Assembly: GCF_034702125.1 (NCBI RefSeq)
Contig: NC_085872.1
Location: 24,994,502-25,058,501, forward strand
DNA: 64,000 nt
Reading direction: 5' to 3'
Source: Engraulis encrasicolus
Taxonomy: Eukaryota; Chordata; Actinopteri; Clupeiformes; Engraulidae
A model generated the notes under the pieces. That model was not told where the DNA came from. It did no database searches and saw only the letters and a list, made by a program, of their open reading frames with translations. Positions 33,743-50,030 of the stretch are shown here, piece by piece (the stretch's first letter is position 1; each line of letters starts with the position of its first letter). A program made the translations under genes and the position numbers.

Positions 33743-33870
33743 CCCTGCCAACACACCCTTGTGGGTCCCATATGGGTTGAACGTGGGCTGCCCAGCTGGG
33801 CTCAAGTCGGTTTTGGCCGCAGGTTAAGCGGTGGCCCCATGTGGGCAAGCCCAGTTGGGCTAAAGGTGGG

Positions 33871-34250
33871 TTTCATATGGGCCCCAGCTAAAACCTACTC
33901 GGGCAACCCAGGTTTCCCCCATCTAGGTCCCACACCGAGTGGCCCCTTTATGGGTTCTTTATGGGTTTCATATGGGCCCCAGCTAAAACCTACTCGGGCA
34001 ACCCAGGTTTCCCCCATCTAGGTCCCACACCGAGTGGCCCCTTTATGGGTTCTTTATGGGTCTCATATGGGCCCCAGCTAAAACCTACTCGGGCAACCCA
34101 CGTTTCCCCCATCTAGGTCCCACACCAAGTGGCCCCTTTATGGGTTATTTATGGGTTTCATGTGGGCCCCAGCTAAAACCTACTTGGGCAGCACAGGTTT
34201 CTCCCATCTGGATCCCACACTTAGTGGCCCCATGCGGGCTCATTATGGGT
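33871..34250. repeat. 95-bp tandem array (four copies)
   Basis: Units begin near 33871, 33966, 34061 and 34156, each starting TTCATATGGGCCCCAGCTAA or a variant. The first three are almost identical and the fourth is diverged. The array sits just inside the left end of the 8 kb element. Confidence 0.95.
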
Positions 34251-34524
34251 CCCTGATTTTACCCGTTCAGGTATTGTGTGGGCATATTACAGTCAGCCCA
34301 GTTCTTTACACAAACAGCGATAAAATACTTTTACTTCAATTGCTAACAACTCTAAATACATGTTTTGCAAGCCAATATCTGAAAAGCTGAAACATAACAC
34401 TGACTCTTGAGAATGTGGTTACAACAGGCTTTAATTTTGTGTGTACGCCTGTATGCGTGAAAGAAAAAGAAAGAAATTAAAGCCGCAAGCGGCGATGGCG
34501 GGCCCTTCGGTGCTCGGGCTCTAA

Positions 34525-37500
34525 TTACATTTCTGGAGGAGCTACCACTCTGGCCTGACGGGCCTGTCTATTCCCCCCCCTGTCCCTAGCCCCAATCAGC
34601 CATTTGGAGACTGCCTTCTCCGCATCCTTCCTTGTGATGGTATGGGTCATTGTGTTCTTCTTCAAGGCTCCTGCAAGACATAAAATATAGCTCTCAGCCA
34701 AATATCGCGTTTCATATCTGAATATTTAATGGTAGGGGTGTGTACTTCAGTTAAATAAAAACAAAACAAGAACCATTGCCTTCTTAAAGCTGCAGTCTGC
34801 AGGATTTGTTGTTGTCATACGTTTTTTGCATTTTAGGAGTTGTACATGATCTATCAGAACGCTTGAAGTTGAAAGCGGTTACCTCCGTAGTCGCAAAATG
34901 CAAGAAATGCCTTATTTTGCACCGAAAAATAAAGTATTATTCAACTTCCTGTCCCGCCCCTCAAAACACATTCGGCCAGATGTACGTACACAACTCTTCA
35001 TTCCTAAACTCACCTGACATTTGCGAACACGGAATACACAGTAAGTATAGCCCATAATAAAGTAAAAATAAAATAAATGTAATAAATACTCAATACACAA
35101 TGTTTAGCGGTGATTGACAGGTAGCAGAGCCCACCTCATAACCTGATTGGTTACCTTTTACAGGGCCGGTCTTCAATTTTGTAAACAAACCCGCTGGCTT
35201 TGGAGGGAGCTAGCGGGACATAGGGGACCTATAGAAGTCGGGGTTTTTTTTCGTATTGGGGTATTTAATGTACTACTTTCAGAATCCCCGGACAGTTCCA
35301 GGCATTATGCTTAAAACAAAACAAAAACCTGCAGACTGCAGCTTTAACTACCCCAGCCATGACCAATGCCCACCCTTACACACCTGTAGTTGCATGATTG
35401 GTATTATCTATATTTCTTTTACTGTATTGTACACCTACCATAAAAGACTTCAAAAAGCTTCAGTGGCTTGAAGCTCCTCTTGCCATTTCTTCCCAAGAAA
35501 TTGTACTCCTGTGCCAATTTCTGCTCCAGGAGGAAGGCCATCATACGGCGGGTGGCCCCGTCAACAGTGGCCCCTCCAATGTCCGCCACAGCTGCAATCT
35601 GAGGGGTAACAAAGACAATACAAGGCACAAGGCAGGTTAATATTGGTCACTGGAGTAAACCTCTCAACATGGAAGAACTGCCATATATATGGATATGAGC
35701 ACACTTTGGAATACAATTTCGTATCTTCATCTAATTTATTTCATTTAATCTAGGCCAAAGTGTAATATTTTAACACTTTTTACACCACCATAAGTAAACT
35801 TTCCTCGACGAAAAAATATAAAAAGTATTTAATCTCAATTTTCCAAATTTTGCGCTGTGCAGATAAGTGCCTGACCCCCCAACCCCCTCCCCTCGCGCTT
35901 GTGAGGATAAAACAAATGGGCTTTTATATGTTAAATAACAGGCGTTCATAGGCTACAGGAAGCAACAGATTGATTCAGTTCACACATACATTTAAAATAC
36001 ATACCAGTTCTGACATGAAGGTAGGGTTCGCCAGCTTTTCCTCCATGCAGATGACATCATTAATTGTCTTGAGCGGGAAACCCTCAGGAGTACGAGTTAG
36101 GTCGGCCACGTTGTCTTGCTTTTGGAGAAGTGCTTGGAGAATCCTCCCATGGTTCAGCTGAGTGTCTTTCATGTTCTCAAGGAGGGTCAAAATGCGTCTA
36201 AACATGCCATCCCGCACGTTTTGTCTGGGGATTGAAGACTCATGGGTGGTAGGCGTTTCTGCAGCCTGCAGAGCCCCGGTGGCGCGATGAAGAGGTGGAG
36301 GCGTTTGCGGAGCCCCGGGTGGAGGCGTTTGCAGAGACCCGGGTGGAGGCGTTTGCTGAGACCCGGGTGGAGGCGTTTGCTGAGACCTGGGTGGAGGATG
36401 AAGAGGTGGAGGCATTTGCATGAATTGCAGAGTAGATGGAGGCCTTGGAAGTGGAGGCGGTTGCTGAGACCCGTGTGGAGGATGAAGAGGTGGAGGCATT
36501 TGCATGAATTGCAGAGTAGATGGAAGCCTCGGAAGTGAAGGAGATGCCTGTTCATGGATGTCATCATCATCCTCATCCTCGCTGGACATGACCACTGCCC
36601 TAAACATATATTATAATCAAACATATATTATAATCAAGCACAATCAATAAGTTAAAGCATTTCAGTTAACCCCTTAAGACGCGGCTTAATACATTTGTTG
36701 TTACCAGTATGGTAATGACCAAGTCGTGGTGCATTTCTAAAGGGCCTGTGTTGTGTCATAGTATTGTAGTGCTATGGTAGTTACATTTCAATGACTACAG
36801 CGTGCCACTGGAGGTACGGCACGCATTAAGGGGTTAAACTGCAACTACTTCAACTAAAGCATTAGCTCATATAAAGGAATTCACTAAGTCGGGCATCCGG
36901 GCATTTCTCATGTTTGCACCAAAATCAGGTGCCCACTATACTCAGTTGGGGGAAACCACAGGAGAATCGTAGGTTAGGTGTCTTATTTGAATGCAATTTG
37001 AACAGTGTTATGTTACATTATGTAAAGTGGTAATGAATGAACATGAAGGTAAGTTGTTGGGACATGGTAAGAAGTTATATCTACAAAAATTGGGACTTGA
37101 TTGGCATTGAAAAATTCCCCTACAAAATCACAGCATGTGCCGTTAATGTCCCCATTGGCGGGAGGCAGCAATACTACATACTACTCATGTGGTGGGAGGC
37201 AGCAATACTAAAATTTGCTAACTGTTTGATGACATTAAACTAAATTAATCATGTTCCTCCCATAGGCCCTAATGTAAATATCTCCCCAATTTCAATATAC
37301 TGTAGCTGTATTTTTGCAACGCGACAGTGACGACACGCCGACTTAGTGAATATACAGTAAACACTGTGTGTATATACCACCATATACATACAGTATAGGC
37401 CAAAAGTTTGGACACACAAGTTTGGCTGGGTATTTTTACTTGAAAATAGACAAAAAATAAGCTTGTTGAAACCCGTGGAACCATCAGTTGTGCTGTGTTG

Positions 37501-38302
37501 ACATTAGGTGGATAGACTGCTGACATCACTATTGGAAAACTGCTAGAATATAATAGAACACACAGATTTGATGCCCTCCACGAAAATCTACAATGTACTG
37601 CAAATAGCCATATATATAATTCAAATAGACTCACCTCCTTTTGCGCTTCCCTCGGCCCATATTGTCTGAACACTCGGGGTCAGTTGCTACATCAGAATTC
37701 CTGTGCTCCTCCTCCAGTAACTTTGCATGGGCAATGTCATATGTTGCTGTGGGAGACAGATAAATCAGTAGCAATTAGTTTCATTCAGATACAATTTTAA
37801 AGGGGCAGTGTGTAAGATTGTGGCCAAAGTAGGTATTGCAACTACTCTGTTCATTGAAAATGTGATGTCACATTTGATCTTTTCAGGAATATTTACTAAG
37901 TAATAAACTAATATTTGCTTGTATGACCAAATACAGTAAGTTTTCCAGCTAAAAATTCCCATTTCAGGAAATTCAAAAATGGCAAACAATGAAGATCCCA
38001 TCCTCATGTATGAAAAGTGCAATTTTCCCAGTCATAATGATGACTACATAGAATTTGATGGTGGTGGTAAGTATTTGTGAAAAATCCAAAACACATATGG
38101 GCGCATTACCGGCTTTTCTCCTCACAGTGACTTTGAACTTGACCCAGTCACTGGAAGGATCTCTTTCTTTCATCGCTGCCCTGGTGAAGTTTGTCTTCGG
38201 GGGTGGCCAGTAGCATTCGCCTTCGTCGGGTCCTGTAAACCACTTTGTGGATATTACCGCCAGTCCGTCGTTCGGGAACTCCACGACAGCAAAAGGTAAC
38301 AT
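34525..38302 (-). CDS. DUF4806-type protein, five exons, 401 residues, inside a mobile element
   Basis: Exons in transcript order: 38302-38110, 37746-37635, 36599-36005, 35598-35439, 34670-34525. All junctions are GT-AG, phases agree and no stop interrupts, so the frame is intact. The N-terminus MLPFAVVEFPNDG...CYWPP (1-34) and a basic linker ending RGKRKRR (about 95-102) are familiar from fish and insect proteins of this kind. Residues about 125-230 are a Pro/Gln repeat region. The DUF4806-like domain follows (about 270-350: FPLKTINDVICMEEKL, then GGATVDGATRRMMAFLLEQ and KRSFKPLKLFEV) and a basic C-terminal tail (ALKKNTMTHTITRKDAEKAV). Function is unknown; such genes are often multi-copy and repeat-linked. 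Intron 4 contains a MITE. Gene family call is from memory of the pattern, not a search. Confidence 0.75.
34784..35347. mobile_element. TTAA-flanked MITE, 564 bp
   Basis: Ends TTAAAGCTGCAGTCTGCAGG and CCTGCAGACTGCAGCTTTAA are perfect inverse copies including TTAA. Lies in intron 4 of the DUF4806 gene, so it inserted after that gene structure existed. Confidence 0.85.
36666..36837. mobile_element. TTAA-flanked MITE, 172 bp
   Basis: TTAACCCCTTAAGACGCG at the left and CGCATTAAGGGGTTAA at the right. The terminal CCCCTTAA and TTAA flanks suggest a piggyBac-like relative. Lies in intron 2 of the DUF4806 gene. Confidence 0.75.
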
Positions 38303-41029
38303 GCTTAAAAAAATAAAATAAATAATAATAATAAATGTTACTTTAAGCTGAACGTGGTTAACTTGGCACTCAAGGAAAGAACAGAATTTCAAAACGGTTG
38401 TACACATGACAGCTGCGCACGCTACAAAACTCATCAAAGTGGGGAAGCGTGGCGGGACGGAAGCGATTTCCACCGGCTGTGGCGAAAATACATGGAAACA
38501 GATCTGTCCTTACACACCGACTCGGCGGTAGTCGGGCGGGAGACGGCTCCGTCCCTCGCTGCTTTTGGAAAATAGAACGAGGGTGTCATCGTTGACAATT
38601 AATGATCATTATAACGATGCAATTCTGACCTTTCAAGATATGGCTTCACACGAGCCCTGTCGACATGGATGGTTGAAAAGGCCTTAGGAAATGTAGGCTA
38701 TTGACTATTACCGTAGTAGCCTACATTTTTAAACTTATTGGCAGAGGTGGAAAGAGTACAGAAAATGTGTACTCAAGTAAAAGTATCTTTACTTTGCTTA
38801 AATTCTACTCAAGTACAAGTAAAAGTACCTATCTAAAAATCTACTCAAGTAAAAGTAAAAAGTACTTCACTTAAAATGTAATTTGAGTAAAAAGTACTTA
38901 GTTACTTTTAATTAACTTTCCTCTTGAGAATGTCATGTTTATTTTTCTTGAATATCGTCCTCCATAACCTCTATCTCTTGCTTGGCACCAGCCATCATCC
39001 AATACATTGATACGAGATAGTAAAATAGTGTAAATGCTGTGTGCCATCCTGCACAATCTTTCATTTCTGGCAGATTGTGGCATTATTGTGCATGGCATTT
39101 TGTCTCTCAGTAATTTTTTTTTACTCAGTACTCAGGCCAGGTTCCAGTGTAATTGAGTAAAGTACTTGGGTCCAAATGTACTCAAGTACAAGTAAAAGTA
39201 TTAATTTAAAAATGTACTTAAAAAGTACAAAGTATTCATAAAAGCTACTCAAGTACAATATTGAGTAAAAGTAATAAGTTACTTTTCCACCCCTGCTTAT
39301 TTGCCCACAGCTTTGTCGTGTCACCCTTGAGGCTGCTGCACGTTGCGCTCTTGTTTTCTCCTAAACTTTTTCTAATGATTCCTCTGTCGCCTACCTGCAT
39401 AGATGCTTTGGCTTTTGGGCTGCAAGGCTCTTGTACACTTGTACACTGTCCATGTCGAATGAATTAGCTTGCTGTCAGCGCAAAAGTTAGCTTGTCAGTG
39501 CACTCGCGCGCCTGATATTAGAACGTCAAAAAATAGACAATACATTGCAAGGGTGCAGGCAGACAGAACAGTGTAAAATCAGCCACAGACTGACAAGAGC
39601 TGCGCGTGCAGCCTCTAATTAGCACTCAGTCGGCTGACTTCTTTTAGAACAATTGCAGTGGACTCAGTAGCTCCAAGCATACTTTTTAAGGTTTTACCAG
39701 ACAACATATTGGTATTCTGCTGCAGTATGTTTTTTTGGGACATTTGGGGGCAGATTCGGGATTCGGGAAAGCAGCTTAAAAATCGGGACTGTCCGGTCAC
39801 CCTAGTTCTAAGCACAGTACAAGCGATCCCTCAGCTAGAACTATGCCGTTAAGTCTTCCCCCGCCAGCCCTCACCTTTGCGCTTCTCAAGGTGTTTCTGA
39901 CTGGCACAAACATTGCTAATGGGAGCCCAGATCCTCTGGCCTTGAAAATATTGCTAACCTTCACGAATTTCACAGGTCATCTGCCTTACTGTTCTCTGTA
40001 TGGTGTTGCAAACAAACACTTTTCTCGTCTGACAAAATTAACACTTAAAGATGGAATCAATATCCAAAGTTTCAACCAAAGTTCGCTAACGACCAAAGTT
40101 AGCTAACCAAAGTTAGCTAACGACAGATAACTCGTTCATTTACATTAATAGGATCCTGTCCTTTTGGTTAACATGATGCAGTAATAACATAATTGTAGAA
40201 ATAGCAATAGCCAAAGTACACTCGTATCAGATGTTTACCAACCTTTTGTTAAGTAATCCAGCTCACTCGAGAGCTTCTCTTCAGTCAGTTACACTGAGGC
40301 AGCAGACAAAAGCCGGTCAGTTAGCAAGCACTCAGAAACGGCGCGAAATGTATCCATTTCCATGGGGTGGAGATTTCCCACGCAGTTTGCATTGCTTCTT
40401 GCTTTTGCTATCCTGCAGGAGTTGCACTGGAATATGCCTGCTTTCTTTTAGGTTATTGCAAACTTCGTTGTGCTCATCTGATTACTTTTATTTGTACATT
40501 TCAATTATTATTATTATTAAAAGACTAATAGTATTGCATATCAACTATATATGGTAATGCAAAGGCCCCCTTACAAAATTCTAGAAAAGTTTCCTTTCTC
40601 TTCCTTCTTGCAAAGTCATGTACTAACTCATCAAAGTTGAGCTGTTGCACAAACATTTTCTCCATATCGCACAACCCTATAACATTTCAGCTTTTCAGAT
40701 ATTTCCATGCAAAACATGTATTTGTTGTACAATGTACAATTTAAGTGGCCTAATTGTATTAATAGTCTTTTTGCTATTGCTTGTCTAAAGAACTGTAAAA
40801 TTAGGCCTGCATGGGCCCCAACAACTGGGCTTGCCCACATGGGGCCACTGTTTAAAATCAACTAAATTAGCAAATGTAACTTTCACAGTAGGCTACTGTA
40901 TGTGTAAAAACACAACTCTCAACTGGGAAGTAAAGCAAGAAATATGTGTTGCTTTGTTTATATATAGGCTATTATGCTATTACATCTCAACTGGTAGGTG
41001 GGAGGAAAACGTGTTTTTGAATTGAATTG
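38303..41029. other. non-coding interior of the 8 kb element
   Basis: Upstream side of the DUF4806 gene. Besides the hAT MITE it has a patch at 40803-40850 that repeats the left sub-terminal motif in inverse (GGGCCCCAACAACTGGGCTT). No further gene or transposase recognised. Confidence 0.6.
38742..39295. mobile_element. hAT-type MITE, 554 bp
   Basis: Left end CAGAGGTGGAAA, right end TTTCCACCCCTG, with an 8-bp flank duplication CTTATTGG / CTTATTTG (38734-38741, 39296-39303). Sub-terminal AGTACTTTTACTCAAGTA motifs are repeated at both ends. It sits 5' of the DUF4806 gene. Confidence 0.85.
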
Positions 41030-41039
41030 AATTGGAGCC

Positions 41040-41720
41040 TTGCTGGAACCCACTTCCTGTCCATGCTCAATTTAGCCCATTTAATGCCCACCCATTGCCC
41101 ATATGGGCTTCAACAACAAAGCCCACTTATTGCCCATGCTAAATAGCCCATTTAATGCCCACCAACAGCCCATGTGGGGCCCAACAACAAAGCCCACCTA
41201 TTGCCCATGTTAATTTAGCCCATTTAATGCCCACCCATTGTCCATATGGGCTCCAACAACAAAGCCCACTTATTGCCCATGCTAAATAGCCCATTTAATG
41301 CCCACCAACAGCCCATGTGGGGCTCAACAACAAAGCCCACCTATTGCCCATGTTAATTTAGCCCATTTAATGCCCACCCATTGTGCATATGGGCTCCAAC
41401 AACAAAGCCCACTTATTGCCCATGCTAAATAGCCCATTTAATGCCCACCAACAGCCCATGTGGGGCCCAACAACAAAGCCCACCTATTGCCCATGTTAAT
41501 TTAGCCCATTCAATGCCCACCCATTGCCCCTGTGGGGCCCAACAAAAAAGCCCACTTATTGCCCATGCTAAATAGCCCATTTAATGCCCACCAACAGCCC
41601 ATGTGGGGCCCAACAACAAAGCCCACCTATTGCCCATGTTAATTTAGCCCATTCAATGCCCACCCATTGCCCCTGTGGGTCCCAACAAAAAAGCCCACTC
41701 AAAGCCCATGCCCACCCGAA
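41040..41720. repeat. 143-bp tandem array of GCCCA-rich units
   Basis: The motif AAATAGCCCATTTAATGCCC recurs at 41141, 41284, 41427 and 41570, an exact 143-bp period. Each unit is itself two related halves of about 71 bp (GCCCACTTATTGCCCATGCT and GCCCACCTATTGCCCATGTT). Lies just inside the right end of the 8 kb element. Confidence 0.95.
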
Positions 41721-41775
41721 GCCCACCTAGCCCAAGTGAGACCCATGTGGGCCCCAACTGTATGTGTTTGCAGGG

Positions 41776-42761
41776 CAGTCTCTTTCATATGGCACGTTTC
41801 TTAACTTGCTCAAACGAGAGGCTGACGGTTGTCAGCAGCCGCATGTTCTTATTAAACTCGCTTGGCTATTAAACTATTAAATGCACGAACGATTGCACAC
41901 CCCTGTCCGTGAAATAAACAATGGTTATTAAAACAGTCCTACGTGGACCGATTGAAACGCCTTCCGCGGAAAGTCAAGGTCGCTCATTTAGATGAGGCAT
42001 CGCAAATCGATAGAACACCACTATCGAATAGGGCGACCGGTCGCTCATCTCGACGAGGCAACACATCTCGACAGAACACCGGAATCGAGTAGCTGAGGTA
42101 AAATAGACGTAAATACTCGGGCGGATATCCGGGCACTCACATCCGGCAGCCTACTTACATTGGGTTGCTACATGCTACATGGACACTGCACGCACTAAAC
42201 GGCGGCCATGTTGACAATGACACGGGGGAAATGTGGCATTCTAGTGCAGCAAATACCTCAAACAATCTTTCACTTGGTGATACAAGCATCACATTTGCTT
42301 CAGACCCTACTCTTTTAGAAAAGGTCGCTATCCAGGTGAAAAAACAAAATGGCGGCCATTTTTCCAAGATGGCCACCATGCAGATATGAATTAGCAACTG
42401 AAACAACTGTTCAAATGGTGATACAAGCACTGGAATTGTCATAGATACTCCTTAGACACACTTCTTTTGAAAAGGCATGCAGGCCACTTGAAATCCAAGA
42501 TAGCCGTCCATTTTCCTAGATGGCCACAATACTTTTTGCTTAAACTTAGATGACACGTTGGCTACCTAACCACTTAATTTATTGATTGCTTGTTATTTTT
42601 TATTTGTGCGTGTGGTCCTTTGTTTAAAACATATCTGCCTGCCTTCCCTCTCTCACACACTCAAGTCTTTCAAAAACTTTAAACAACAGCATGTGGAAAT
42701 GCCATTGGCTTTGGAGGGATACAGCTGTCAAAGTAGCCTACAAGTCATCAAGACTATAGGC
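41776..42761. other. repeat debris right of the 8 kb element
   Basis: 42113-42170 is the inverse of 31443-31501, and about 42175-42243 is the inverse of about 31201-31265. These are arms of a larger, older element into which the 8 kb element inserted. No gene. Confidence 0.6.
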
Positions 42762-44565: not shown

Positions 44566-46182
44566 CAGTGCCCTCCATAATTATTGGCACCCCTGGTTGA
44601 GATGTGTTTTTTAGCTTCCAATTATTTTATTTTTTTTCTAAATAATATGGGACCTTAATGGAAAAAAAGAGAAAAATCCAACCTTCAATACAAGTGCATT
44701 TATTCAGTGGGGAAAAAATCCCACATAAAGAAATAATTATTTGACATCAAATAATGTGTGTCACAATTATTAGCACCCCTGGTGTTAATATTTTGTACAA
44801 CCCCCTTTTGCCAACAAAACAGCACCTAATCTTCTCCTATAATGTTTCACAAGATGGGAAAAGACAGAAAGAGGGATCTTCAGCCATTCCTCTTTGCAGA
44901 ATCTCTCTAAATCATCCAGAGACCTGGGTCCTCTCCTCTGTACTCTCCTCTTCAGCTCACCCCACAGGTTCTCAATGGGGTTGAGGTCAGGGGACTGAGA
45001 TGCCCATGGGAGGAGCTTGATTTTGTGTCTGGTGAACCATTTCTGTGTAGATTTGGCCATATGTTTAGGGTCATTGTCTTGCTGAAAGACCCAGTAACGA
45101 CCCAGCTTCAGCTTTCGGGCAGAGGGCAACAAATTTTGATTTAAAATGTCCTGGTATTTCAAAGCATTCATGATGCCATGCACCCTAAAAAGGTTCCCAG
45201 GGCCTTTGGAAGCGAAACAGCCCCACAGCATCACTGACCCACCCCCATACTTCACAGTGGGTATGAGGTGCTTTTCAGCATGCGCATCTTTCGTGGTACG
45301 CCAGACCCACTTAGAGTGTTTGTTGCCAAAAAGCTCAATCTTGGTCTCATCTGACCAAAGCACACGGTCCCAGTTGAAGCCCCAATACCGCTTGGCGAAC
45401 TCCAGACACTTGCGTTTATGATTGTGAGTGAGGAAAGGTTTTCTCCGTGCATGCCTCCCAAACAGCTTGTTGGCGTGTAGACAGCGCCTGATGGTTGATT
45501 TGGAGACTTTGTGACCCCAGGATGCTACCATTTGGTTTAATTCTGTAACAGTGAGCTTTGGAGATCTTTTGATTTCTCTTACCATCCTCCTCACTGTGCG
45601 TGGTGGCAAAATAAACTTGGGTCCTCGTCCAGGCTTGTTTACCACTGTTCCAGTTGTTTTGAACTTCTTAATTATTCCTCTCACAGTGGATATGGGCAGC
45701 TGCAGTTGAGTGGCAATCTTCTTGTAGCCTCTGCCTGACCTGTGAAGGTCGACGCACATCTGCCTCACTTGTATGCTGTGTTCCTTTGTCTTTCCCATGT
45801 TTAAGAGTGGATAAGAGAAATGGCCTCGGTGTCACGTCATATTTATACCCCAGGGAAACAGGAAGTGATGAATTACTAATTAAATGTTCCTACATACTCT
45901 GGTAAACTTTGTAAACTACTGTAGAAATGACAGAAATGCTTCAATTATATTTATTTCCTGGGAATTGTTAAGGGTGCCAATAATTGTGGAACAGGTGATT
46001 TAATGAAAAATAATTATTTTTTAGTCAGGGATTTTTTTATTTTCTTACAATTCATTTGAGTTGAAGGCTACATTTTCCTACAATTTTCAGTGTGACAGTA
46101 TTCTTCTGCAATAAACACTGAATTTATTTTAAGGCTTTTAACACATCTCAACCAGGGGTGCCAATAATTATGGAGGGCACTG
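44566..46182 (-). mobile_element. Tc1-like transposon, 1617 bp, apparently intact
   Basis: Terminal inverted repeats CAGTGCCCTCCATAATTATT and its complement are flanked by TA (44564-44565, 46183-46184). Related internal repeats (CACAATTATTAGCACCCC near 44762; the inverse of CCACAATTATTGGCACCC near 45970-45990) give the IR/DR layout with two sites per end. The transposase gene fills 44785-45798. Confidence 0.9.
44785..45798 (-). CDS. Tc1-like transposase, 337 residues, intact
   Basis: Cut-and-paste DDE transposase moving the 44566-46182 element into TA sites. It starts MGKTKEHS with paired helix-turn-helix DNA-binding regions (about residues 1-110: VRQMCVDLHRSGRGYKKIA...STVRGIIKKF) and a GRGPKF hinge. 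The catalytic triad is visible: D in WSDETKIE, D in QQDNDPKH, and E in SPDLNPIENLW with 34 residues between the last two (DD34E). The glycine-rich box KYGGGSVMLWGCF is present. Length matches the family (about 340). No stop or frameshift. Confidence 0.95.
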   Translation of the reverse strand: MGKTKEHSIQVRQMCVDLHRSGRGYKKIATQLQLPISTVRGIIKKFKTTGTVVNKPGRGPKFILPPRTVRRMVREIKRSPKLTVTELNQMVASWGHKVSKSTIRRCLHANKLFGRHARRKPFLTHNHKRKCLEFAKRYWGFNWDRVLWSDETKIELFGNKHSKWVWRTTKDAHAEKHLIPTVKYGGGSVMLWGCFASKGPGNLFRVHGIMNALKYQDILNQNLLPSARKLKLGRYWVFQQDNDPKHMAKSTQKWFTRHKIKLLPWASQSPDLNPIENLWGELKRRVQRRGPRSLDDLERFCKEEWLKIPLSVFSHLVKHYRRRLGAVLLAKGGCTKY

Positions 46183-49389: not shown

Positions 49390-50030
49390 CGGGGCAAATC
49401 AACCCACCCAGTCAGAAGTTGTGGGCCAAAGTGTTGGCCACCAAAATCTAATCAGCTCATGAATCTACCCTGGAACATTAACACACAGAATCTGGGCAAA
49501 TCCATCCAACTGGTCAGAAGTTATGGGCCAAACAAAAATTTGGCCATCTTGAATTCAGCCATCTTGAAAGTGCTGGCCTCCAACATCTAATCAGTTAATG
49601 GACCTACCCTAGAGCATTAACACACCGAATCTGGGACAAATCCATCCACCCGGTCAGTAGTTATGAGCCAAACAAAAATTCGGCAATCTTCAATTCAGCC
49701 ATCTTGAAAGTGTGAAAGTGTTGATCTCCAAACTCGAATCAGTTAATGAACCTACCCTAGAGCATTCACACACTGAATCTGAGACAAATCCATCCACCCG
49801 GTCGGAAGTTATGGGCCAAACAAAAATTCGTTCATCTTGAATTCAGCCATCTTGAAAGTGGTGATCTCCAAACTCGAATTAGTTCATGAACCTACCCTAG
49901 AGCATTAACACACCGAATCTGGGACAAGTCCATCCACCCGGTCAGAAGTCATGGGCCAAACAAAAAATCGGCCATATTGAATTCAGCCATCTTGAAAGTG
50001 TTGACCTCCAAACCAAAATCAGACAAGAGA
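49390..50030. repeat. tandem repeat of about 140-bp units
   Basis: The motif GGGACAAATCCATCCACCCG or a variant starts near 49391, 49494, 49633, 49780 and 49921, each followed by GTCAGAAGTTATGGGCCAAA-type and CATCTTGAATTCAGCCATCT blocks. A further partial unit lies near 50306-50395. Confidence 0.85.

Follow-up and report, generated by a model that had tools for sequence, protein, structure and literature searches.

In maize, the protein TNPA of the En/Spm transposon binds the subterminal repeats of the element, and TNPA and the transposase are both needed for transposition (PMC2613891). Animal relatives of the CACTA superfamily, the TRC elements (SmTRC1 of Schistosoma mansoni and relatives in Tribolium and Aedes), are described as having terminal repeats that start with CCC, suggested as the core of these repeats, together with 2-bp target duplications (in 7 of 14 copies), a tandem-repeat region, spliced transcripts and a Transposase_21 protein; the parts of that description on which we draw name no BEN or DUF4806 protein (PMC1636069). 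Here we analyse a stretch of 64,000 nucleotides (the window) from contig C16 of the 1.43-Gb anchovy (Engraulis encrasicolus) assembly, which holds at positions 33743 to 41775 an element with a spliced DUF4806-type gene. Like the TRC elements, it has CCC-starting terminal repeats, 2-bp target duplications, tandem repeats and splicing; unlike them, neither it nor its copies yielded a Transposase_21 protein. We think it probable that the element is a non-autonomous CACTA-like transposon whose BEN-fold protein binds the repeat arrays and pairs the ends, with transposase supplied in trans. The overall picture given by the first-pass annotation of this DNA, a bounded element with arrays, a spliced gene and no visible transposase, was borne out. 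The element and its ends are laid out as follows.

33743..41775, unstranded: whole element, 8,033 bp, boundaries common to the copies on C12, C5 and C2
33741..33742, unstranded: target-site duplication, left copy (CA)
41776..41777, unstranded: target-site duplication, right copy (CA)
33743..33755, plus strand: left terminal inverted repeat, CCCTGCCAACACA
41763..41775, minus strand: right terminal inverted repeat, CCCTGCAAACACA in inward reading
33824..33857, plus strand: inner inverted repeat, partner 40822-40855
34354..34392, plus strand: inner inverted repeat, partner 40685-40723

As annotated, the ends are inverted repeats, an imperfect 13-bp pair, and longer inverted repeats lie deeper inside the element. 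In searches of the whole assembly, where the match counts for end queries are lower bounds, the left-end query gave at least eight matches and the right-end query at least six, and a pattern fitting both ends gave at least 14 (one of them on C22) against none for its reversed control. The boundaries are sharp, with 5 of 7 other matches starting precisely at 33743 and 4 of 5 ending precisely at 41775. Inverted end pairs were found at four loci, on C16 (the window), C12, C5 and C2; left ends stand singly on C3, C7 and C21 and right ends on C13 and C18, and C398 bears a cut left end. Thus the multiple copies with shared ends that the earlier annotation had named as the mark of a mobile unit do exist, and the opposite outcome, ends never found together, did not arise. 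All four paired loci have terminal repeats starting CCC, and three of the four have 2-bp duplications of varying sequence (CA/CA in the window, AT/AT on C12, AC/AC on C5). Non-coding differences from the window, counted over ungapped columns, number 54 of 4,562 for C12, 62 of 3,305 for C2 and 54 of 2,107 for C5, with 5.2% and 3.3% divergence for the partial copies on C3 and C13 and about 8-14% for the ends on C7, C21 and C18. The low divergence among the paired copies indicates that their spread was fairly recent. The element is a real anchovy transposon that moved fairly recently.

Inside the ends lie two subterminal arms.

33762..34260, plus strand: left subterminal region, TGGG boxes at +20, +31 and +42 from the end, period-95 array at 33867-34231
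41049..41756, minus strand: right subterminal region, TGGG boxes at +20, +31 and +42 from the end, period-143 array at 41061-41711

The arrays have the unlike periods first noted (left, 3.8 copies with 94% matches; right, 4.5 copies with 96% matches and a period of 71 reported too). The GGGCC/GCCCA theme proposed for them is better described as a series of TGGG boxes at an 11-bp pitch. Across 13 arms at nine loci, TGGG stands at +31 and +42 from the terminus in all 13 and at +20 in 12. Where the outer stretches are not repeated, neighbouring boxes are spaced at exactly 11 bp in 4 of 7 cases on the left and 10 of 19 on the right, where random placement would give 0.30 and 0.92; the observed values were reached in one and none, respectively, of 20,000 random trials. 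Therefore, we view the periods of 95 and 143 as higher-order repeats with one helically phased motif in common. TGGG counts also exceed those of shuffled sequence (19 against a mean of 8 on the left, 57 against a mean of 27 on the right), and the right-arm boxes point mainly inward, 57 against 10.

The gene lies on the minus strand between the arms.

38110..38302, minus strand: exon 1, most of the N-terminal domain
37635..37746, minus strand: exon 2, ending in a GRGKRKRR stretch
36005..36599, minus strand: exon 3, with an acidic stretch, Pro-rich repeats, a long predicted helix and the start of the DUF4806 domain
35439..35598, minus strand: exon 4, DUF4806/BEN-fold domain
34525..34670, minus strand: exon 5 and stop codon

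Its splicing is intact, as the annotation had it, with all four introns GT-AG, phases 1, 2, 0 and 1, and a product of 401 residues that is 100% identical to the 401-residue NCBI model P0001 from Engraulis encrasicolus. The NCBI names of the element genes P0001 and P0002, 'bromodomain-containing protein 4-like' and 'YLP motif-containing protein 1-like', perhaps derive from Pro-rich repeats, and genes so named can be transposon genes. From its N-terminal domain the protein runs through a disordered, Pro-rich stretch and a long helix, probably forming a coiled coil, to the DUF4806 domain at its C-terminus. The DUF4806 (PF16064) match at residues 276-352 upholds the earlier family assignment narrowly, at 25.1 bits against a curated cut-off of 25, and Pfam BEN (PF10523) was not listed for the protein up to an E-value of 1. 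The predicted structure of the DUF4806 domain has the features of a BEN fold, so that we predict the domain to fold as a BEN DNA-binding domain like those of Insensitive, BANP and BEND6, with identities to these of about 8-12% across the aligned domain. In Insensitive and BANP a coiled coil also mediates multimerisation (PMC6317261, PMC11472053), a role that the predicted helix of the window protein might share; unlike the window protein, all three are host proteins.

A genome search with the protein gave 17 matches, every one at one of six loci that bear element sequence (the window, C12, C2, C5, C3 and C398). Among 7,993 candidates scored in the protein database there were 57 relatives, the named ones all fish, and the related genes are multicopy in other fish. 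These results bear on the origin of the gene. The first-pass annotation had also entertained the capture of a host gene, here a host DUF4806 gene taken up in anchovy by a non-autonomous element, and the presence of introns, the failure to find a transposase and the annotation of DUF4806 genes in zebrafish (PMC11075544) would all suit such an event. We nevertheless hold it to be very improbable, given that the protein has no matches outside element loci in this genome, that its relatives are multicopy, that BEN exons elsewhere in the genome adjoin CACTA-type transposases (see below) and that a Cirrhinus molitorella prediction carries, as read from the protein alone, an array-like translated peptide followed by the last exon of the gene. 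This prediction suggests the same neighbourhood of gene and array in another order.

To look for a transposase we compared five pieces from four Transposase_21 loci of the same genome with the window and the fetched copies, and none matched, in keeping with the annotation's report of no visible transposase. By the TRC comparison, the combination of CACTA-like ends with no transposase leads us to class the element as non-autonomous with CACTA-like ends and not as an autonomous CACTA. The copies likewise offered no extra piece in common that would hint at a lost ancestral gene. An all-against-all comparison of 18 extra or outer pieces of the copies listed, from a length of 80 bases upward, matches of just three kinds: between C2 and C398 over a retroelement-like stretch (80%), within C398, and between C21 (outer part) and C7. 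An ancestral gene common to the copies thus did not emerge; by eye, several open reading frames (ORFs) in these stretches resemble retroelement frames. A 4.6-kb extra piece in the C2 copy was considered as the carrier of the element's transposase and rejected. It has its own ends (TAGGGTTGCCACCTGTC...), which we take to be hAT-type, and an 8-bp duplication (GCCTTACT), and is thus nested; it contains an interrupted transposase-like frame and a long minisatellite, and none of its ORFs matched a transposase family over cut-off. The window copy has a nested insertion of its own.

38742..39295, unstranded: nested insertion, CAGAGGTGG...CCACCCCTG with flanks CTTATTGG/CTTATTTG, outside the ancestral element

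This 554-bp insertion, from its ends presumably hAT-like, has nearly matching 8-bp flanks and is missing from the C12 and C5 copies, the two at which it could be judged, the neighbouring stretch being replaced at C2. Taking this private insertion together with the lack of a common extra piece, the ancestor would have been roughly 7.5 kb long with one recognised gene.

Evidence for a link between BEN proteins and CACTA-type transposases came from elsewhere in the anchovy genome. The Pfam BEN model has 16 genome matches, three of them in one open frame on C19, which we take to be host BEND3, and 13 in dispersed single exons. A transposase beside one of these exons on C12 has at least 64 matches forming at least 44 loci (64 matches listed, with 62 of 202 candidates scored); it can be aligned to a clearer transposase on C1078. 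A divergently oriented transposase match lies no more than 15 kb from seven of the 13 BEN exons (on C16, C12 twice, C3 twice, C8 and C7) and at 33 kb from one more, on C1, compared with a random expectation of about 0.001 per exon. Both transposase matches neighbouring the C16 exon contain stops. Three elements of this kind, hereafter BEN-CACTA, lie at C8:25047182-25055963, C12:22914532-22924839 and C3:54280977-54287516, those on C8 and C3 having been read in their end stretches alone and resembling copies of one family, so that they are not independent. A fourth BEN-transposase pair, at C12:6.10 Mb, yielded one possible left end but no right end to match. The stretch C3:54279900-54293584 holds two BEN-CACTA loci of one family head to head, their BEN-side ends about 300 bp apart.

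The C12 BEN-CACTA element has ends CCCTTACCAAAAA/CCCTTACGAAAAA and a CA duplication, the C8 element has ends CCCTTATC/CCCTTACC and a TA duplication, and the C3 element also has a TA duplication. These share with the window element ends that start with CCC, duplications of 2 bp and a BEN exon placed close to one end, and on C8 and C3 also dense subterminal arrays, there built of CCTATAGG, CCAATAGG, CCAATTGG and similar palindromes, spaced regularly at 19-22 bp in the transposase-side arm and less regularly in the other. What sets them apart from it is a divergent CACTA-type transposase, a BEN domain of canonical type, CCCTTA at the ends, and boxes that are palindromic, of the form CC(A/T-rich)GG; C12 has fewer of these boxes (6 in one arm and 1 in the other). 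Insensitive, a BEN protein of Drosophila, has the palindrome CCAATTGG as its site and requires a multimerising region for binding (PMC6911014, PMC6317261). BEN is the top match of the C12 BEN exon (38.1 bits, E 1.8e-9), with DUF4806 second at 14.3 bits, under its cut-off of 25, and other ORFs on the same strand contain, by eye, a GRGKR stretch, an acidic stretch and a helix-like stretch. Searching 2,547 ORFs from four transposase regions with a profile of the N-terminal domain of the DUF4806 gene, we found the C12 BEN gene as the top match (E 0.064; next 3.7).

These comparisons also serve to weigh the superfamily, since with no listed transposase match within 1 Mb of the end-bearing loci the assignment draws on ends and layout, by which the window element would be CACTA-type. 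Alternatively, the ends could come from a different superfamily that also makes 2-bp duplications, such as a relative of Harbinger or one as yet undescribed, and resemble CACTA by convergence. Indeed, these exact ends are linked to no transposase, the CCCTTA ends of the BEN-CACTA elements share mainly CCCT with them, and one Labeo prediction (P0049) fuses DUF4806 to a HARBI1 nuclease, though joined gene predictions are frequently chimeric. Harbinger relatives too can yield 2-bp duplications, and most CACTA-related lineages have CA..TG termini (PMC12730594). Convergence is nonetheless unlikely in our judgement, as the CCC ends, 2-bp duplications and BEN-type gene recur in three elements that sit with CACTA-type transposases, at least two of which share the dense subterminal arrays.

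How might a CACTA-like element use such a protein? We propose that the 401-residue protein would multimerise, that its multimers would bind the TGGG boxes, spaced about one helical turn in both arms, and that the array-bound protein would mark and pair the ends for a CACTA transposase, like TNPA for maize En/Spm. The transposase would have come in trans, from a partner unseen in this assembly or one since lost. Judging from the predicted fold, the protein probably grips the repeat arrays at both element ends, and fold, arrays and layout together point to a TNPA-like function, that is, subterminal repeat binding and a need for it in transposition. The earlier suggestion that the DUF4806-type protein helps to mobilise the element, perhaps by binding the arrays, thereby gains indirect backing from the predicted BEN fold, the helix and the BEN-CACTA pairing, two of the BEN-CACTA elements also having BEN-type palindromes in their arrays. 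The likeness to plant En/Spm lies in the spliced gene for a DNA-binding protein aimed at subterminal repeats, putatively so in the window; the plant elements differ in ends that start with CACTA and, in a soybean element, in a 3-bp duplication (PMC2613891).

Alternatively, the element could be a deletion derivative that keeps a DNA-binding protein as a repressor or regulator, occupying the arrays and damping transposition. No copy yielded a transposase, a BEN protein sitting on the arrays could block them just as well, and maize TNPA is itself also a suppressor and regulator (PMC2613891). On the other hand, CACTA-type elements of the same genome retain a BEN exon beside their transposase and relatives of the protein occur in many fish, both of which suit a regular component over a by-product. 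We consider this account, taken as the explanation, rather unlikely; helper and repressor roles are compatible, not exclusive.

Several observations weigh against the proposal that the protein pairs the ends of a CACTA-like element. The C2 paired copy showed no target duplication in its flanks, and no end-bearing locus has any of the 64 listed matches of the C12 transposase (62 of 202 candidates scored) within 1 Mb. All five exons are intact in the window copy only: the C12 copy lacks exon 5, the C2 copy lacks exons 1-2 with exon 4 seemingly frame-shifted, and C5, C3 and C398 hold most of exon 1, exon 5 and a broken piece of exon 4, respectively. Differences between copies are even over codon positions (5, 8 and 9 for C12; 5, 5 and 6 for C2, with some misalignment in the Pro-rich repeats), so that the recent copies give no sign of selection on the protein. 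The Foldseek E-values are weak (best 0.04), as is the N-terminal likeness of the C12 BEN gene to the DUF4806 gene given above. Left-arm TGGG boxes face both ways about equally (19 against 20), and the CCAATTGG-type palindrome is scarce in the window arrays (1 and 2 matches), which makes the binding site of the window protein a putative one. Finally, for 5 of the 13 BEN exons there is no transposase as near as 60 kb, and the transposase nearest to the C7 exon is in tandem, with the divergent one at a distance of 12.3 kb. The C12 right arm has a single palindrome. The C12 transposase clears the Transposase_21 cut-off marginally (28.8 against 28.6 bits), and the C8 and C3 transposases were assigned by about 41% identity to it.

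More generally, BEN-fold proteins, including DUF4806, may do in animals what TNPA does in plants, with fish CACTA elements carrying as standard a second gene for a protein that reads helically phased subterminal boxes. Its site would shift with the array (CCAATTGG-like palindromes or TGGGC boxes, by family), and the gene could go on spreading in elements that have lost their transposase; we regard this wider reading as evenly poised. To our knowledge, TNPA is not a BEN protein. A zebrafish CMC-EnSpm element, likewise a fish CACTA element, is described with 'two full proteins', although its terminal inverted repeat is CACTCAAAAAAAT and the second protein goes unnamed in the parts of the source cited (PMC11202377). 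If the wider reading is true, some genes annotated in fish as DUF4806 or BEN genes are transposon genes or their derivatives. The finding joins two puzzles, the role of the multicopy fish DUF4806/BEN genes and the recognition by animal CACTA elements of their long repeat-rich ends. The job of gripping arrays has so far been best known from plant transposons. Natural pairs of protein and array also offer material for reading BEN specificity.

Among the fish relatives, the smelt Hypomesus protein P0028 shares 91.3% identity in the N part and 94.9% in the C part with Carassius P0012, a closeness similar to that between two cyprinids (Carassius P0012 and Megalobrama P0014, 96.2% and 93.7%), and is 84.6% identical to Pimephales P0019 over the N part. 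The closeness of the smelt and cyprinid sequences hints at horizontal transfer, and strong constraint may be another cause. Elsewhere in the window, a minus-strand open frame of 348 residues at 44788-45831 has a start that we take to be that of a Tc1-type transposase, and a further tandem array at 49428-50012 (period 140, 4.1 copies) is possibly the subterminal array of another element.
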